NCBI GenBank assembly: GCA_024277595.1
Contig: JAJRUV010000033.1
Coordinates: 1 to 34,174, forward strand
Reading direction: 5' to 3'
Source: Gammaproteobacteria bacterium
Lineage (GTDB): Bacteria > Pseudomonadota > Gammaproteobacteria > Thiohalospirales > Thiohalospiraceae
Length of the DNA stretch: 34,174 bases
The stretch's first letter is position 1. The number at the start of each line of letters is the position of its first letter. The notes below the pieces were generated by a model. It ran no database searches. It was not told where the DNA came from and worked only from the letters and a program-made list of their open reading frames with translations. The translations under genes were made by a program, and so were the position numbers. This document shows positions 20,297 to 29,726 of this stretch, in pieces.

Positions 20297-21334
20297 TTAA
20301 CTCGATGTACTGGCCTTTTTATCCGGGCTGCCCTCTTTTTTCAGAAGAATCTCGATTTTTGCCTTTTCACGGAGTTCCCGGGTGTGAGTGACTACATTTG
20401 CTCTTACCGCTTCCGATTCCAGATAACTGAGCAGAAAATCCCTCACTTTTTCGTAGGGAGTGAAGCTGCCAAGCTTATTGCCAGCGATCATCAGAACATG
20501 GTAACCAAATTTTGATTCAATTACATCGCTGATTTTCCAGGGCATGATTGAAAAGGCAACATCATCAACCTCTTGGGGCAGCACTCCTTTCTTGATGTAG
20601 CCGCGCTCCCCACCAGCGATTTCCAGGCCCGTCTTCTCGGACAACTCACTGGCGACTTCAGCAAAACTTTTTCCCTCAACCAATAATCTTTTTGCTTCCT
20701 GTGCTGTTTTTTCTATTTTTTCCTTCTCATCAGGAGAAGCACTATTTTCAATCTTTATAAAAACCTGGTTTAGTTTTACCTGCTCGGGGATTCTGAAGCT
20801 TTTCTTCTGTTGTTCATAAAGCGCCTTGATATCATTTTCTGGAATATTCGGTTTGGTCAGTCCTTTTTGGTCAAAGTAGGCTTGAACAAGAAAAGACTTT
20901 CTGAAATAAGTACGTTTTTTCTCCAGCGAGGTGTCTTTCGTGCTCAAAAATTCATCATATTTCTTTTCACTGCCAAAGGTGCTTGCCAGAGAGAGCAATT
21001 TTTGATTAACCTGTTCTTCGACATCAGGAGGATCCTCCATCGCCATGGCGGCCTGATATATAACCGCTGAGTCAATCAGCTCATCAAGAATCTGCATCTG
21101 TACGGCATACGCCACATCAGACTGGAGGTTGCCTGCCTTCATTCCGTATTTTTTACGTTTGTTAAAGCGCAACGCCAATGACTCGCCCAACTCCTTTTCA
21201 TAGATGGGAATATCGTTGACTTTTGCAACAATTTCACCTTGCGGCTTCTCCTCTTGCTGTTGTGGTGTGCCGTAAGCGGTAGAGGTTATCAATAGCAGAA
21301 CAGTGACAAGAAGTATGGAATGTATTATACGCAT
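20297..21334 (-). CDS. Secreted PpiC-type (parvulin) peptidyl-prolyl isomerase
   Basis: 345 residues with a signal peptide (MRIIHSILLVTVLLLITSTAYG) and a SurA/PrsA-like layout. The N-terminal helical chaperone region includes ILDELIDSAVIYQAAMAM. A parvulin domain spans about residues 185-290 (EQVKLNQVFIKIE, GKSFAEVASELSEKTG, GGERGYIKKGVLPQEVDDVAF, ESKFGYHVLMI). The end is Lys/Ser rich. It catalyses prolyl isomerisation of exported proteins in the periplasm. The ATG is 10 nt after the subtilase stop, so the two are translated together. As last gene of the cytochrome/protease set it is probably a dedicated foldase for the Pro-rich exported partners. It is too short and divergent to be the housekeeping SurA. 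Confidence 0.92.
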   Translation of the reverse strand: MRIIHSILLVTVLLLITSTAYGTPQQQEEKPQGEIVAKVNDIPIYEKELGESLALRFNKRKKYGMKAGNLQSDVAYAVQMQILDELIDSAVIYQAAMAMEDPPDVEEQVNQKLLSLASTFGSEKKYDEFLSTKDTSLEKKRTYFRKSFLVQAYFDQKGLTKPNIPENDIKALYEQQKKSFRIPEQVKLNQVFIKIENSASPDEKEKIEKTAQEAKRLLVEGKSFAEVASELSEKTGLEIAGGERGYIKKGVLPQEVDDVAFSIMPWKISDVIESKFGYHVLMIAGNKLGSFTPYEKVRDFLLSYLESEAVRANVVTHTRELREKAKIEILLKKEGSPDKKASTSS

Positions 21335-23043: not shown

Positions 23044-24531
23044 TTAGTGCCAGGAAGACCACCAGCTCTCTATTAACCACCATTTTGGACGTGCTGGAGT
23101 GGAGGGGGAACTGATGCAAGCACTCTCTGCGCTGCCAAATACGCTGGTAACTTTAACAGAACCCGATGCGTCCAGACCACAATCAGCGATGATTTTGGAT
23201 GTTGTCCAGTTTTCAATACCACATTTTTCCGCAGTGCCGGTGTCAGTAAGTGCCACAGGAAGGTTTTCATTTTTCAGATAACGGCCAAAGCCCTTGCCTT
23301 CGACTGTAACAGTATTGCCGGTGCAAGTAACCTTGTCGATAATTGTAGCGGGCAGTTCCGCACTTACAAGACCATAGCCGTAAATATCGTCTTTTCCCGT
23401 CAGCCCGAGTTCCCGGGTCGATAATTGCAGTTTTGTCCTTGTGTCTTCATTTATGTCCAGGCCGGAAATGGCTGGGTAATGTGCCGCTTCCGACATTATC
23501 AGGGCGGCGGTTCCTGCTGCATGGGGGGCGGCCTGCGAGGTGCCGCTCAGGGTTCCGTATGCGCCGTCTATTGCGGTAGAGGGGACGAGTACTCCGGGTG
23601 CGCTCAACTCTATTTCCGTATCGATGGGTGCAAAATCACCGCGCTGATCATATGCGTCGGTTCCGGTTACAGAAACTACTGAACTGTAGGTGGCCGGGTA
23701 GCTCGTTCTTGCGCCGTAAGTGTTTCCGGCAGCAGCGATGATTAGCAAGCCAGACTCATGGGCTGCTTTGCAGGCTGCTTCGAATGCTTCCGTGTGTCCA
23801 CCCTGAATACTGATATTGGCGATATCCATATCATTATCGATACTCCACTGCAGCGCTGCAATAACACTGTCTACCGAACCGCTGCCTCGTTCATCCAGAA
23901 CCTTGAGGGAGTATAGGGATGCCTCCGGAGCTACGCCAACAACGCCGGTACCGTTTTTCTCGGCGGCAATGATCCCTGCTACGTTGGTGCCGTGGCTGTT
24001 GTAGCTGTCATCCAGTGGGGGGGTGCTTTCATCAATGAAGTTATAACCGCCGCGGTAATTGTCATCCAGCTCCTCGTGATGAAAATCGATGCCGGTGTCA
24101 ATCACTGCTATTTTTACCCCTTTCCCGGTAATACCCTGCTGGTGAGCTGCTTTGGCTCCGATGTGCTTTACTCCCCACGAGCGGTCGTACTCATTTTGAG
24201 ATGTGTCGGCGGTAAAGACTCCCGGAGAGTAGATAATCGCGGAACCCGCGGGCGGTTCTATAATGGTGATTGTCGCGTTTTCTTCAATATAGGCTATCAG
24301 TGGATGGGTGCCCAGTTCAGATAGAGCGGATTCGGGCAGCGTGGCTACTATGGCAGGTATTAAATCATATTCACGCTGGATAACGCCGCCATGATTGTTA
24401 ATCAGCTCTCGGTGTGGTGAAGCAATTTTTTCGTGGAATCCAATAATCATTTTCTGTTCCGCAGCTATCGCCGTGGTGGAGAGAAAAAAAACAGTAATGA
24501 GAAGATGGTTGTGTTTAGTAAAATAAAACAT
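23044..24531 (-). CDS. Secreted subtilisin-like serine protease (S8), paralogue 2, with four-Cys IPT-like module and Trp-rich C-terminal tail
   Basis: 495 residues from ATG 24529-24531, chosen for AAGGAAAG upstream. Signal peptide LLITVFFLSTTAIAA; I9-like propeptide (MIIGFHEKIASPHRELINN); S8 domain with Asp145 (VIDTGID), His180 (NSHGTNVAG), Asn270 and Ser332 (GTSQAAPHAAG), all intact. The EF-hand loop present in paralogue 1 is degenerate here (GLDINEDTRTK). Residues about 397-475 are an IPT/TIG-like beta domain (TVTVEGKGFGRYL, IIADCG, VFGSAES) with cysteines 403, 437, 451 and 472. The protein ends RPKWWLIESWWSSWH. The same Cys spacing and tail occur in the octaheme cytochrome encoded just upstream, which strongly suggests a shared location or a shared processing system. 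Confidence 0.94.
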   Translation of the reverse strand: MFYFTKHNHLLITVFFLSTTAIAAEQKMIIGFHEKIASPHRELINNHGGVIQREYDLIPAIVATLPESALSELGTHPLIAYIEENATITIIEPPAGSAIIYSPGVFTADTSQNEYDRSWGVKHIGAKAAHQQGITGKGVKIAVIDTGIDFHHEELDDNYRGGYNFIDESTPPLDDSYNSHGTNVAGIIAAEKNGTGVVGVAPEASLYSLKVLDERGSGSVDSVIAALQWSIDNDMDIANISIQGGHTEAFEAACKAAHESGLLIIAAAGNTYGARTSYPATYSSVVSVTGTDAYDQRGDFAPIDTEIELSAPGVLVPSTAIDGAYGTLSGTSQAAPHAAGTAALIMSEAAHYPAISGLDINEDTRTKLQLSTRELGLTGKDDIYGYGLVSAELPATIIDKVTCTGNTVTVEGKGFGRYLKNENLPVALTDTGTAEKCGIENWTTSKIIADCGLDASGSVKVTSVFGSAESACISSPSTPARPKWWLIESWWSSWH

Positions 24532-24878
24532 AAAACTTTCCTTGTGTGTTCCTGCCAATCCATTTCAAGCTGTTTGAACAGGTGTTTACTTGCGTGTATA
24601 CCAGAATCCATATCTGATAAACAGCGATACGATACCGCTAGATTTGTTGTTATTTGGTTGTTCTGGTACGGTTGTTGGCGAGCATTGGCTGTTTTTCCGG
24701 TATAGGTAGATGCTCACGAACTTCAGAGAAATCCGCACTGCTCGGTCTATTGCCCGCCTGCTCAATATAACAAATATGGCTGGCAAGCTAAATAAGGGTG
24801 CTTAAAAAAACCTGCTATAATTTTGCGCCCGGAATGCAAATTTCTCGTTTCCTGAAGAAAATCCAAAAAACAGTTATT
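24532..24878. other. Intergenic/leader region upstream of subtilase 2, no confident gene
   Basis: About 350 bp with no credible coding frame. On the plus strand a TATAAT at about 24823 is followed by a GC-rich discriminator (TTTGCGCCCGG), resembling a stable-RNA promoter, but there is no tRNA or gene behind it. The promoter for the subtilase genes, if separate from the cytochrome promoter, should be here on the minus strand, but none could be fixed. Confidence 0.5.
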
Positions 24879-24989
24879 CTAGGAGTCTGTCGGGTTTGGG
24901 TAATCGTAGCGAGCTGGTGGGAGATCGAGTCAAATTGGCCGCTCTCCCCTCAGCGCAGTAGATTATTCCCAAACCTGACAGACTCCTAG
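24879..24989. mobile_element. 111-bp inverted-repeat element (MITE/REP-like) after the octaheme gene
   Basis: The 22-bp ends 24879-24900 (CTAGGAGTCTGTCGGGTTTGGG) and 24968-24989 are inverted repeats with one mismatch, and a TAATC / GATTA match extends them. The inner part (gtgggag / ctctccc) can fold as a second stem. The outer CTAG on both sides may be part of the ends or a 4-bp palindromic target duplication. It begins 10 bp after the octaheme stop codon, so its transcript hairpin would separate cytochrome from protease expression. Transposase family unknown. A plain attenuator or terminator is the alternative, but there is no T-run. Confidence 0.7.
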
Positions 24990-24999
24990 AGCATCGATA

Positions 25000-26706
25000 T
25001 CACCTCCGTGACCACGTCCAGGAGGACCACCAGCTCCAGACATCCCACCATTTTGGCCTACTGCTGCTGGTATCATCGTTAGAACCAGAGCTGCCGGTGC
25101 CTGAGTTGGTGGTTCTTTCGCATGTGGCATTGGCAATTGCACTGCCGAATACTCCGTCGACCTTTATGTTTTCCTCAATGCCAGAGCCGCAGTCGGCAAC
25201 AATGTGGGTATCACTCCAGGAATCCACTTTGCAGTTTTTCAGCGCTGTCATGTCGGAGATGCTGGTTCCCGAGTTTTTTGCGTCCAGGTAGCCGCTGAAT
25301 CCGCTGCCAGTGACAGTGATTTTGCCATCGTCGCAACTGACCTCGCCTATGGTTACGTCAGGTGTGACGACCAGGTTGGCGAGAGGGCTTTTTACCGTAC
25401 CCTTAACCAGTTGAACATCGTAACTTCCTGGTGGCAGGTCATCAGGTAATCTCACCTCAAGGGTGGTTGGCGTGACGGTGTCGGCTTTATACTCGTGGAA
25501 ATTTCCGTCCCTGTCAGTCAATATCACGCTGGCGACCAGCTCAACAGGACCATCTGGACTCTGCAGGGTACTGATAAAGCCGGAGCCGGTAAAAGTAAGC
25601 ACCCTTGGCTCCGCATCGACTGAAGCACTCCGCATTCCCCCTCTGCCACCCCGCATTCCCCGACCCCTCGTTCCCATATGGCCAAAAGTGGGAACAACGT
25701 TTGTGCCGGAAGACGGCCCGTCTCCCGTCTGAAGTATGGCCTCGACACCAGCCCCCTCAAAATTGCCGTGACAGCCCCGGCAATTGGCCGGACTGCCGAT
25801 ATGGCCCCAGAAGGGTTCTTCCTTGCCCGGCGTTATACCATCACCCTTCTGGTCAAATTCGATGTTGTGCAGGGAACTGATGCCATGACATTTCTCGCAA
25901 CCCCGGATAGTGTGGTTCGGGGGAGTAAAGTCATGGCACAGGTTGCAGCCATGCACCGAACCACTGTTCGGCTGGCCAACGCCTGTCCCGTGATGGGTGT
26001 TGAAATTGGTTGGCACAACTCTGCCGCTGACTTGATCTGTTCCGGAGTAGTGGCAGTGGGAGCAGTTGCCTTTGCGCCGACCGTTGTATGCAGCAACAGG
26101 AGGATTAAACTGGTTCGACCGGCTGCTGGTATCGTAATTGTCGCCCGGCCAAGGTGTTATCAGTGAAATGTCGTAATCCGGGATGTGGCTATCATCATTG
26201 GGATCATCAATGAGACTGCCATGACAGAGCTGGCATTTGGCCTCCTGAGCCTTTTGGGTCAGGTGGTGAACCGAGGCAACTCCTGGTGTTTGTGCATGGC
26301 AGTTGAGGCAGTTGCGAAACTCGGGTTCGGTTGGTTCCAGAACAAACTTGAAATATCCGCCATCCGGCATGGCGGGATCAGCAACCCAATCTGTCAGGTG
26401 ACAGGTCAAGCATTGGTGAGTGCCACCCGGTGATTTTTCCGGGTAGGGAGAGGCCGAATATTCACCAATGGGGGTATTAACCCGCAGGTGGTGCCGATCC
26501 GGCAGATATCCGGGATTGACGGGAGCCGGAGCATTTTCCGGATCACCGTGGCAGCCAAGGCAGGTTTCAAATGTCATGTCGTTGAATACGCCATCCGGAA
26601 TGCCGATATTCTGGTTGACCGGAGGAGGGGGAATGCTGGCAAATACTGTGGCGCTCATTGCCACTACCGGTAGTAGTATCAACCCTTGCAGCAGTTTCTT
26701 TATCAC
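25000..26706 (-). CDS. Secreted octaheme c-type cytochrome with two IPT/TIG-like domains and a Trp-rich C-terminal tail
   Basis: 568 residues from a GTG start (26704-26706) with GAGAGGT upstream. A signal peptide ends near VFA (residue 23). Eight CXXCH haem sites occur at residues 49, 99, 133, 158, 215, 254, 270 and 309, with many extra His (RHHL, VHHL, NTHHG, WGHIG) for bis-His ligation. Then comes a Gly/Arg/Met linker (RGRGMRGGRGGMR, 347-359), an IPT/TIG-like domain (about 366-449), and a second one (451-530) with cysteines 458, 492, 506 and 529. The end is a Ser/Gly/Asp linker followed by RPKWWDVWSWWSSWTWSRR. Neighbouring subtilases and a PPIase suggest proteolytic maturation as known for Geobacter OmcZ, also an octaheme protein. 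Expected role: extracellular electron transfer. Possibly surface-bound or filament-forming; this is not shown. Confidence 0.93.
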   Translation of the reverse strand: MIKKLLQGLILLPVVAMSATVFASIPPPPVNQNIGIPDGVFNDMTFETCLGCHGDPENAPAPVNPGYLPDRHHLRVNTPIGEYSASPYPEKSPGGTHQCLTCHLTDWVADPAMPDGGYFKFVLEPTEPEFRNCLNCHAQTPGVASVHHLTQKAQEAKCQLCHGSLIDDPNDDSHIPDYDISLITPWPGDNYDTSSRSNQFNPPVAAYNGRRKGNCSHCHYSGTDQVSGRVVPTNFNTHHGTGVGQPNSGSVHGCNLCHDFTPPNHTIRGCEKCHGISSLHNIEFDQKGDGITPGKEEPFWGHIGSPANCRGCHGNFEGAGVEAILQTGDGPSSGTNVVPTFGHMGTRGRGMRGGRGGMRSASVDAEPRVLTFTGSGFISTLQSPDGPVELVASVILTDRDGNFHEYKADTVTPTTLEVRLPDDLPPGSYDVQLVKGTVKSPLANLVVTPDVTIGEVSCDDGKITVTGSGFSGYLDAKNSGTSISDMTALKNCKVDSWSDTHIVADCGSGIEENIKVDGVFGSAIANATCERTTNSGTGSSGSNDDTSSSRPKWWDVWSWWSSWTWSRR

Positions 26707-26767: not shown

Positions 26768-27355
26768 TCATCTGCAACTGCCACCACCGCCCATACCCCC
26801 CATACTGCTCCCTCGCATGCCACCTCTACCACCTCTACCGCCCCCCATGCCTCCTCTGCCGCCACCCGTGTAGTCATACGTGCCATCGTCATAAATTGTT
26901 ATACCGTGGCATGCATTACACGGAAGCCCCCTCATGGGGTGCCGGTTTCTCATCGGAGGGCCGGTTACAGTGCTTGCCGGATGGCAGTACAGGCAGTCCC
27001 GGAAAACATCAAACTTGTAGGAAACGGTCTCTTCATCCCAGGTAAAACGATGGCATGATGTGCAGTCATAAACGTTCCCCAGTGCTTGGCCCGGAGGTCC
27101 GGTAGTGCACTTTACCTCGGTACCCACTTTGAGATGATGTTTATCCGGGTTACGCATTCCCAGCCACTCGGCCAGAGGGCTGTCTCCTTTGTTAAAGCGC
27201 GTCTCGTGGCAAACCCGGCATTTTACTTCTGTTACTTCACCGCCAAACAGATTCATTCCCCTCATGGCGTGGCCAGGGAGGGGGAGCAGCACGCCAACCA
27301 GTAACACGGTGAGTGGCAGTAAAAACAGATATGGTTTTTTGTTGTTCAATAGCAT
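26768..27355 (-). CDS. Secreted tetraheme c-type cytochrome with Gly/Arg/Met-rich tail
   Basis: 195 residues from ATG 27353-27355; an upstream in-frame TTG at 27388 is less likely because the signal peptide (FLLPLTVLLVGVLLPLPGHA) fits this ATG. Four CXXCH sites lie at residues 46, 98, 121 and 146. NPDKHHLKVGTEV and FDVFRDCLYCH match corresponding segments of the octaheme protein (LPDRHHLRVNTPIG, PEFRNCLNCH), so the whole haem part is paralogous to its first four haems. The last 30 or so residues are almost only Gly, Arg, Met and Ser, ending GGGGSCR. The gene is the first of the cytochrome/protease series, 61 bp before the octaheme start. Probably an electron-transfer partner of the octaheme protein in the periplasm or at the surface. 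Confidence 0.92.
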   Translation of the reverse strand: MLLNNKKPYLFLLPLTVLLVGVLLPLPGHAMRGMNLFGGEVTEVKCRVCHETRFNKGDSPLAEWLGMRNPDKHHLKVGTEVKCTTGPPGQALGNVYDCTSCHRFTWDEETVSYKFDVFRDCLYCHPASTVTGPPMRNRHPMRGLPCNACHGITIYDDGTYDYTGGGRGGMGGGRGGRGGMRGSSMGGMGGGGSCR

Positions 27356-28007
27356 ATGAAATCTACCCTGCTGGTTGATAACGAACAAATTGTCCCGGGG
27401 TGGTGCTGTCTGGTTTTTTCATCAGGCATAAAACCGGTTTCCTGGTTTTTCCTGTGAAAGGGCTACATGTCTTTAAGGATATCGGTTATTGGTTATGTGA
27501 AAATTACCTGAATTAAAAAACAAAATGTAAATCCGTTGTGTTGTACTTGTTATTCTCTGGCGTTTTTGTCTGTTTTGTGATTTAGACTCAGTACAGTCTA
27601 GCCTATAAATTCAGGTTTGTCTCTTGGTGAAAGTAAAAATTACGAGCATAATTTTTCTGAGCCACACATTTTTCTGCGCTCAAAGGGCTACGGGGAAGCA
27701 GGCGGCAATTTTGTGAGTAACGATGCTTTAAAGCGAGTTGCCAGGGGAGGTAACAATCTGCTGGTCGCCAGCGAATATTCTGTTTACCCTCATTGCTGGT
27801 TCGGTGCGCTCTTTTCGCGTCGACGCGGCGGGTGGTGTTTCCAGGAGAGAGTGCAGACACACCTCGACATACCGGGTTTTAAAAACCCGTGGGTGGTTAA
27901 AGGGAAGATAATGGCGACAGTCGGAAGCTCGCCAACAATCCAGAATGCTGTCTGGCAAAATAGCCCGCAGCGACCCGGGTGCGATAAATTTTTACGTCAA
28001 ACATAAA
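27356..28007. other. 650-bp region upstream of the cytochrome cluster, no confident gene
   Basis: Should contain the promoter of the cytochrome series (minus strand), probably in the AT-rich 27400-27600 part, but no convincing -35/-10 or -24/-12 pair was found. Open frames on both strands (for example plus 27617-28006) show no domain, no ribosome binding site and odd composition, so they are not called. Two short palindromes occur: CGCGTCGACGCG near 27818 and CGGGTTTTAAAAACCCG near 27870, the latter possibly a weak terminator or operator. Confidence 0.5.
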
Positions 28008-28065: not shown

Positions 28066-28644
28066 TCAATCAGCCATTTTTTCTGCTGCTTTCTTGCGTC
28101 TCAGGGCAGCCAGACCAACAAGAGCTGAACCGAAGAGCAGTGCAGCCGGCGGGATGGGAACAGGCGCGGCGTTGAGCGATGCATTATACCATCCTCCACC
28201 GGTAATACCGACACCGGTATCGCCGACACCCATAGCGGTACCCGAGACTGTAATGTTGTATACAGCATTGGTTAATGCTCCGCTAAACCCCCAGCTGTCG
28301 TTTGACCCGGTAATCTCCAGGGGTGGGTTTGGGGAACCGGAAGCACTCATGTTTTGAATGTCAAAATTCATGCCGCTGAAAGTAAGCGGGATATCGGAAA
28401 AATGAACGCGGACATTCGCTGCACCCGGTGCTTCATTTACCTCCAGTGTCCAGGTATCCGAGAACGCCTTACCGGTTCCCGACACGTTATCGTGATATAC
28501 CGATGTGCTTTGACCATCATACAGGGTGTTTAATACGGAAACCCCATCGTATGTGCCCGGCGAAATTGCCATATAGGTCGCCGCATGCACTCCTGTGCCG
28601 GCCAGCGCCAGTAGCGATGCTGCCAGCAGGTGTTGTAGTTTCAT
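28066..28644 (-). CDS. PEP-CTERM-like exosortase substrate 1
   Basis: 192 residues from ATG 28642-28644, chosen for AAGGAG nine bases upstream. Signal peptide MKLQHLLAASLLALAGTGVHA. The mature part is Ser/Thr/Gly/Asn-rich, with FSDTWTLEV near residue 61, like the FxDxF class of PEP-CTERM proteins but with Trp. The C-terminal sorting tripartite signal is VPIPP, then hydrophobic AALLFGSALVGLAAL, then the basic RRKK. Such proteins are cut by exosortase and released or attached at the surface, often as part of exopolysaccharide matrix. It is similar throughout to the next gene, so the two are paralogues. The sigma-54 promoter upstream supports the class. No exosortase gene lies in the window. Confidence 0.88.
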   Translation of the reverse strand: MKLQHLLAASLLALAGTGVHAATYMAISPGTYDGVSVLNTLYDGQSTSVYHDNVSGTGKAFSDTWTLEVNEAPGAANVRVHFSDIPLTFSGMNFDIQNMSASGSPNPPLEITGSNDSWGFSGALTNAVYNITVSGTAMGVGDTGVGITGGGWYNASLNAAPVPIPPAALLFGSALVGLAALRRKKAAEKMAD

Positions 28645-28766
28645 TATCATCTTCTCCTTGCCAATTACCAAACGGGATACGCTCTACGGCTCGAACCCGA
28701 TACCTCAGTCACACAATCGGGCTAACTGGGCACGCTGTTTTTGCTGTAATACGCACAGCAAATAGG
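28645..28766 (-). promoter_or_regulatory. Structured 5' leader of PEP-CTERM gene 1
   Basis: The predicted transcript starts near 28755, giving a leader of about 110 nt. It can form a GCTGT/ACAGC hairpin and CCCGAT / ATCGGG around a 14-nt loop (28695-28720). It does not fit a riboswitch class I know; it may affect mRNA stability or translation. Confidence 0.4.
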
Positions 28767-29219: not shown

Positions 29220-29726
29220 TCAGCTGTTTTTACGACGTCTCAGGGCAGCCAGACCAACGAGGGCTGAGCCGAAGAGCAGTGCGGCCGGTGGAAGGGGGAC
29301 GGGCGCTGCATTGAGCGAAACCTCATAGGCTCCCCCGAAACTATAGCCATTTACCGTGTTGTCACCTGTGGCATCACCACCAATTGTGAAATTGTATGTG
29401 CCATTTTCAAGCGTACCTGTGTAAAACAAGCTGTCGCCTCCACCGGCAAAGGTTGGACTTCCGGTGACCGCCAGGTTATCAATGTTAACGGTATACCCAA
29501 GCAGGGAGCCGTGAACATCAGAAACGCTGATGTTAACATCAGCGGCACCGATTGTTTCATCCACTACCAGCGACCAGCTGTCGGAAAAAGTTCCATTCGG
29601 GTGTATTGTTATGCTGCTCTCGGTATCGGATAGTGCCGCCCCGGATCCTGTCAGCGTAGTTGCTGCTTCTGCTCCTGCACTGGCAAATGCCAGCAGTGAT
29701 ATGGCGAGTATGTGCTTTGCTTTCAT
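29220..29726 (-). CDS. PEP-CTERM-like exosortase substrate 2
   Basis: 168 residues. Signal peptide MKAKHILAISLLAFASAGAEA. The mature part has low Cys/Lys and high Ser/Thr/Gly/Asn, including FSDSWSLVV at about 47-55. The C-terminus is VPLPPAALLFGSALVGLAAL followed by RRRK, a PEP-CTERM-like sorting signal that is almost identical, also at DNA level, to that of the preceding paralogue. The rest aligns throughout with lower identity (for example ITGSND / VTGSPTF regions). Predicted to be exported by Sec, then processed by an exosortase encoded elsewhere. Its own sigma-54 promoter and terminator show it is a separate transcription unit. The exact role is unknown, possibly matrix or surface structure. 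Confidence 0.88.
   Translation of the reverse strand: MKAKHILAISLLAFASAGAEAATTLTGSGAALSDTESSITIHPNGTFSDSWSLVVDETIGAADVNISVSDVHGSLLGYTVNIDNLAVTGSPTFAGGGDSLFYTGTLENGTYNFTIGGDATGDNTVNGYSFGGAYEVSLNAAPVPLPPAALLFGSALVGLAALRRRKNS

Follow-up and report, generated by a model that had tools for sequence, protein, structure and literature searches.

A tryptophan-rich C-terminal tail on OmcZ-type cytochromes and unrelated proteins of two gammaproteobacterial genera as a candidate sorting signal

Why should a multihaem cytochrome and the subtilisin-like protease encoded beside it end in the same tryptophan-rich peptide? The question is raised by a 34,174-nt stretch of a gammaproteobacterial genome (GCA_024277595.1, contig JAJRUV010000033.1; hereafter the window, meaning this whole stretch), in which a 568-aa octahaem cytochrome precursor, P0001 (25000..26706), stands next to a 504-aa S8 subtilase, P0002 (23044..24558). 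These and all other window features described here lie on the minus strand, and the genomes compared are mostly metagenome-assembled genomes (MAGs). A first-pass annotation had proposed that a module of about 100 residues, comprising a four-cysteine part and a Trp-rich tail, was one tag common to the protease and its presumed substrate. We find that the tag is the last ~19 residues, and that these are on balance best read as a C-terminal sorting signal, of a kind unmatched in NCBIfam, that keeps exported proteins at the envelope or cell surface or steers them there. We advance more tentatively the further proposal that it represents a new class of signal, Trp-rich instead of transmembrane and with a putative reader of its own, which would send the precursors of nanowire cytochromes to the same envelope site as a maturation protease and hydrolases of cell wall or polysaccharide.

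P0001 is a homologue of OmcZ with a tandem immunoglobulin-like (Ig) propeptide. It runs from a hydrophobic N-terminus through eight CxxCH motifs and a linker to two Ig/IPT domains and the Trp-rich tail, and it matches full-length Geobacter OmcZ (PDB 8d9m; phmmer E = 1.7e-43) over two stretches, residues 2–318 (the octahaem part) and 357–505 (the C-terminal part, aligned to 8d9m 296–441). Its octahaem, putatively filament-forming region (approximately residues 25–313; 25768..26634) aligns with the mature OmcZ filament subunit 7lq5 (E = 2.4e-32). In Geobacter, pre-OmcZ carries tandem Ig domains at its C-terminus, the subtilisin-like protease OzpA removes the C-terminal part, with filament subunits ending near residue 284, and omcZ-ozpA operons are widespread (PMC9473688). 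Since P0001 matches OmcZ and the published omcZ-ozpA features recur beside it, the window holds a nanowire-type cluster, in which P0001 would by homology be matured and form filaments. P0002 (Pfam Peptidase_S8, PF00082, E = 1.6e-48) has an intact catalytic triad (D154, H189, S341) and probably starts at the ATG at 24531 rather than at the TTG from which its length is counted. Both P0002 and a second S8 subtilase, P0005 (21345..22847), share 40–51% identity with subtilases encoded beside Desulfobacterota omcZ homologues, a comparison made without the sequence of OzpA itself. We regard both as OzpA-like and P0002 as the putative maturation protease beside omcZ, which would cleave pro-OmcZ as described for OzpA (PMC9473688). 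In its catalytic part P0005 shares 54% identity with P0002, but its C-terminal domain is a different one, with neither Ig module nor tail.

The reported likeness between the ends of P0001 and P0002 was borne out in its particulars. BLASTP gave a single significant local match, between residues 449–563 and 403–503 respectively (34% identity, E = 4e-19), the cysteine spacings are exact (P0001 458/492/506/529, or 34/14/23; P0002 412/446/460/481, or 34/14/21), seven of the 19 final residues of the cytochrome are Trp, and the tails have in common the DNA words CCACCATTTTGG (at 23077 and 25045) and ACCACCAGCTC (at 23058 and 25026). What did not hold is the view of the whole module as one tag. Its four-cysteine, IPT-like part is the known second Ig (IPT/TIG) domain of the OmcZ propeptide (~450–530; 25117..25359; Pfam TIG 21.0 bits, cut-off 20.9), adjoining a first Ig domain (~366–449, boundaries approximate; 25360..25611) that aligns with the C-terminal part of 8d9m. 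In an AlphaFold2 (AF2) model of P0001, residues ~371–530 mostly have a predicted local distance difference test score (pLDDT) of 75–92 with one block at 52; the strands of the first domain are mostly above 75, and the second domain is mostly at 77–84 apart from the block at 52. Foldseek returned Ig/IPT folds, among them those of Met and plexin, as weak hits (best E 3e-5), and Cys 458, 492 and 506 are invariant across 30 OmcZ. The AF2 model of the subtilase, built on seven sequences, had a pLDDT of 39.7 and was not used. The tail of P0001 (RPKWWDVWSWWSSWTWSRR; 25003..25059) follows the second Ig domain; P0002 has a captured OmcZ-type second Ig domain (~403–482; 23113..23352) and a shortened tail (RPKWWLIESWWSSWH; 23047..23091) that lacks the terminal WxWxxR.

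This pair are not the sole carriers, as two further octahaem paralogues on contig C88 of the source genome hold the segment. The tail occurs in all eight genomes of the source genus (g1) and both genomes of a second genus (g78), where we counted 44 copies: 35 on OmcZ-like proteins (at least two CxxCH), three on subtilases and six on others, namely two amidases, an M23 peptidase, a polysaccharide lyase and two contig-truncated or short frames matching the OmcZ module. In these ten genomes no OmcZ paralogue whose 3′ end is intact lacks it, and each genome has 3–5 OmcZ-like paralogues and 3–6 tailed proteins. The consensus is (G)RP-x-WW-S-[IL]-W-S-W-[WF]-[SA]-S-W-[SG]-W-S-[RG]-R-stop, ~19 residues. 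Counted from the stop without gaps, R−1, W−4, W−6, W−10 and W−12 are invariant in all 41 non-subtilase tails; position −9 is W in 32 and F in 9, W−15 and W−16 are each present in 40, and P−18, R−19 and G−20 in 38, 35 and 33. A rough estimate from composition puts the chance of such a C-terminus at ~1e-14 per protein. A DNA pattern of the Trp codons matched exactly 40 times in the ten genomes, always at tails already read, while the reversed control, with one mismatch allowed, matched 0–2 times per strand and genome. A DNA pattern for the RPKWW pentamer matches once more in the source genome, within a short 93-codon frame at C62, so RPKWW alone carries little weight and was rejected as a marker; the full 19-residue tail is informative.

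The tail is separable from the Ig domain because it occurs without it on proteins of unrelated families. An Amidase_3 (PF01520) bears it in G003 (E = 8e-6, just below the Pfam cut-off) and G006 (E = 3.5e-7, above the cut-off), as do an M23 peptidase of G086 (E = 4e-12) and a polysaccharide lyase of G213 (PF14099, E = 3e-20) whose neighbouring paralogue is tailless. The amidases and the lyase match a profile of module plus tail at the tail end only. By eye, the tailed amidases, M23 peptidase and lyase have hydrophobic N-termini resembling signal peptides, and the tail carriers are probably exported by that route. The proposed tag common to protease and presumed substrate thus behaves as one in that it is portable and keeps a constant spacing to the stop codon on unrelated, seemingly exported proteins; the protease, however, is not its core carrier, as set out below.

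Several observations concern the OmcZ-like carriers themselves. Some tailed members have only three CxxCH (L053 6719-7885, L062 8607-9965 and L229 1856-2977), the last two adjoining an octahaem OmcZ. The 2.5-Mb source genome has several distinct OmcZ types, and on its contig C88 two tailed OmcZ paralogues are neighbours, flanked by coaE-like and moaA-like genes (L007 8496-12802).

Is the tail maintained for its own sake, or carried along by recombination? The G003 amidase tail and one OmcZ tail agree at 17 of 19 residues, yet 9 of the 10 degenerate codons for shared residues differ. Because synonymous codons are scrambled while residues hold, the tail is not a recent DNA copy and is apparently kept at the protein level; the many synonymous differences likewise disfavour recent copying of the tail onto the amidase, M23 peptidase or lyase. 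Tails also follow genus dialects, mostly SIW.WWSSWSW in g1 and mostly SLW.WFASWGW in g78 (one g78 OmcZ, L052, is mixed), and unrelated passengers follow the dialect of their genus, the amidases having the g1 form and the M23 peptidase and lyase the g78 form. Such dialects are what a lineage-specific reader would produce, although shared ancestry inside each genus may play a part as well. The alternative that the tail is a part of the propeptide spread by gene fusion, aiding the folding or solubility of pro-OmcZ and present on the subtilase and hydrolases as a mere by-product of recombination, fits the preponderance of OmcZ paralogues among carriers and the single capture and erosion of the subtilase unit (below). 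We consider it unlikely, given that tail-only carriers come from three unrelated families without an Ig domain and have protein-level upkeep with saturated synonymous sites. Also noted was a broken Amidase_3 orthologue (L293, G086:C85:15147-15798) whose final residues still fit the tag pattern (WWNTWGWGGR).

The tail is confined to genomes with OmcZ in our sample, which agrees with the expectation that it would recur only with this cluster. No further tail match was found among 114 relatives, 369 Gammaproteobacteria and 398 members of the phylum (overlapping samples), and OmcZ homologues in the 369-genome sample occur in the same two genera only. A wide, non-exhaustive scan of genome contigs for the Trp-codon pattern gave at least one real match, on a Chromatiales MAG contig (L078); among the matches listed, nearly all others are Trp-rich repeats or short frames. 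Within the phylum of G377, taken as Desulfobacterota, 13 of 395 genomes match the OmcZ profile, some only over parts, and none of these matches extends into the tail. Arg or Lys is the final residue of most of the complete tailless precursors (L296-L305, L309, L314; …PTRR, …KIRKR, …KKTR). A basic terminal residue may thus be an older trait of the propeptide, and such endings also accord with the gene-fusion account. In one Desulfobacterota genome, G674, double dockerin type I repeats terminate the OmcZs and the subtilase beside them (L301, L310, L315; PF00404), with 52% identity over 73 aa between the ends of P0006 and P0007. Twice, then, OmcZ and its protease have a C-terminal appendage in common, and the two appendages are unrelated in sequence.

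The subtilase tail has a different history from that of the cytochromes. A tagged subtilase is present in three of the eight g1 genomes (G000, G003 and G004; in some congeners the cluster runs off the contig), and its tag is complete in G004 (...WWSSWRWFHR) and shortened in the window (...WWSSWH) and G003 (...WWSSKR). The S8 Ig modules form one clade (support 100/99), consistent with one capture of the second Ig domain plus tail; because these modules are a single diverged clade, we rejected recent conversion of the subtilase gene by omcZ sequence. Given the sporadic and mostly shortened subtilase tag and the tail on every OmcZ with an intact 3′ end, OmcZ is the core carrier of the tag and the subtilase tail in the window is a decaying copy. 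These data also bear on whether the tail might be a docking or cleavage element read by OzpA-like subtilases, which would process every tagged protein. Subtilases do adjoin OmcZ in g1, but Desulfobacterota OmcZ have adjacent subtilases and no tail, no subtilase lies beside the G213 OmcZ cluster examined, and a subtilase itself bears the tail, which together make this quite improbable.

How might such a peptide act? The first-pass annotation held that the tail has no hydrophobic span with a basic cluster; the absence of a ~20-residue transmembrane span stands, whereas the basic part does not generalize, all 41 non-subtilase tails ending in Arg and 26 of them in Arg-Arg. The Trp stretch, at ~13 residues, does not reach the length of an ordinary transmembrane helix, so the tail is not a conventional one. 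No significant helical or strand moment above that of shuffles was detected in the tails, and an amphipathic helix or strand was rejected on that ground. Summed transfer energies of full tails, at about −11 to −12 (interfacial) and −9 to −13 kcal/mol (octanol), strongly favour partitioning into membranes. Trp/Arg-rich membrane-active peptides insert at interfaces. A Trp-dense, Arg-ended terminus could likewise be a passive anchor, entering the membrane or lipopolysaccharide interface unaided by any dedicated reader or processing enzyme; the favourable energies, the invariant terminal Arg and the lack of a sortase-type partner in searches with the NCBIfam CTERM models and an exosortase profile agree with this. 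We give it a modest chance, as a hydrophobic anchor would call for nothing as strict as the exact Trp spacing and the unvarying distance to the stop across 41 tails, or the genus dialects.

A divergent member of a known sorting class, PEP-CTERM/exosortase or GlyGly-CTERM/rhombosortase, would be built similarly, from a short motif followed by a hydrophobic stretch and a basic end. One exosortase copy is present in seven of the ten tag-bearing genomes, including the source genome (C86:12057-12815), and two FxDxF-type PEP-CTERM-like proteins that match NCBIfam CTERM models have their genes close to the nanowire cluster, on its upstream side (28066-28671 and 29220-29726, minus strand). Seven tagged proteins, however, matched no NCBIfam CTERM model up to E = 5, in line with the earlier statement that the tail is neither PEP-CTERM nor GlyGly-CTERM; together with the missing ~20-residue transmembrane span and the exosortase undetected in three incomplete tag-bearing genomes, this renders membership in a known class very improbable. 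Exosortase is also not favoured as reader of the tail, being single-copy and undetected in those three genomes. A type I exporter was likewise rejected as reader: an ATP-binding cassette exporter with TolC lies beside one g78 OmcZ (L226 2161-5600, G213) but not beside its relatives in five other loci. Separately, a tandem-95 repeat protein of G213 (L225 15182-16009, minus strand) ends in GGSGALSLWGLLALLGFRVYKNND, GlyGly-CTERM-like by eye and matched by no CTERM model, and the genus of G213 may have a rhombosortase.

The sorting-signal reading draws its support from the OmcZ identity of P0001 together with the published removal of the propeptide by OzpA (PMC9473688), from the tail on Amidase_3, M23 peptidase and lyase proteins without an Ig domain, from the invariant positions, the 40 exact Trp-codon matches, the scrambled codons and the dialects, and from the lack of the tail in OmcZ-less genomes of three samples, and the shared dockerins of the G674 OmcZs and subtilase give co-addressing of OmcZ and its protease a precedent. 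Several points weigh against it. The anticipated co-occurring partner did not emerge: no cognate transporter, sortase, other enzyme or receptor was found, exosortase being the only candidate profiled, and exosortase went undetected in G002, G006 and G007 (tag-bearing, 85–91% complete). The Trp stretch is shorter than an ordinary transmembrane helix and has no significant helical or strand moment, and on the subtilase the tag is found only here and there and has been lost in part. Passengers are few per genome and mostly OmcZ paralogues, so that much of the conservation could be OmcZ ancestry, and roles in localization and cleavage are read from sequence.

If the tail is a sorting signal, it would combine a short GRP motif with a Trp-dense, presumably membrane-active stretch and an Arg at the very end. 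It would serve exported proteins as GlyGly-CTERM or MYXO-CTERM serves type II substrates, but with a Trp-rich interfacial segment where those tags have a transmembrane helix. At the end of the tandem-Ig propeptide it would keep the OmcZ precursor at the envelope; an OzpA-like subtilase would then cut after the haem domain, propeptide and tag would be discarded and the octahaem unit would be free to polymerize. Capture of the second Ig domain and tag by the subtilase would have put protease and precursor in the same place.

The surroundings of the pair are conserved. A four-haem cytochrome with a Gly-rich end (26768..27388; four CxxCH; ATG start likely at 27355) precedes omcZ, which is followed by the tagged subtilase, the untagged subtilase and an exported PpiC-type peptidyl-prolyl isomerase (20297..21334; Pfam Rotamase E = 1.7e-15), with MlaC-like and U32 genes beyond; synteny comparison found the same order again in congeners. 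A long inverted repeat read by eye between omcZ and the tagged subtilase (~24879-24990; CTAGGAGTCTGTCAGGTTTGGG ... CCCAAACCCGACAGACTCCTAG on the minus strand) may be a terminator or a small mobile element.

How OmcZ-type cytochromes leave the cell, and avoid polymerizing until placed, is not settled, and a portable terminal peptide gives a handle on both. The 3–6 tagged proteins per genome make a small co-sorted set, any reader of which should be common to both genera and absent from tagless relatives. Set against OmcZ/OzpA of Geobacter sulfurreducens (PDB 7LQ5, 8D9M; PMC9473688), the system has the same octahaem core, tandem C-terminal Ig domains, adjacent S8 subtilase and presumed propeptide removal. 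It differs in a propeptide ending in a Trp-rich tag that is missing from Desulfobacterota OmcZ homologues, in having two subtilases in some genomes, one with the OmcZ second Ig domain and tag, and in its 3–5 OmcZ-like paralogues per genome. The dockerin ends of G674 are alike in being one appendage common to OmcZs and the adjacent subtilase, but are unrelated in sequence and form a folded docking domain instead of a terminal peptide. This suggests that OmcZ and its protease can receive a common address via exchangeable C-termini, a Trp tag in one lineage and dockerins in another. GlyGly-CTERM and MYXO-CTERM are tripartite tags that retain type II substrates at the surface (PMC6219818, PMC11980579). 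The former, read by rhombosortase (PMC6219818), likewise places a short motif, a hydrophobic part and a basic end on exported enzymes including a serine protease; here a ~13-residue Trp-rich stretch stands in place of a transmembrane helix, the GRP motif is not Gly/Ser-rich and no model matches. MYXO-CTERM, read by myxosortase (PMC11980579), is also lineage-restricted and ends in arginines on exported proteins, whereas the tag described here has no invariant Cys, no transmembrane helix and 3–6 carriers per genome compared with dozens. If confirmed, it would be a sorting tag that works without a transmembrane segment, unlike the published GlyGly, MYXO, PGF and LPXTG tags.

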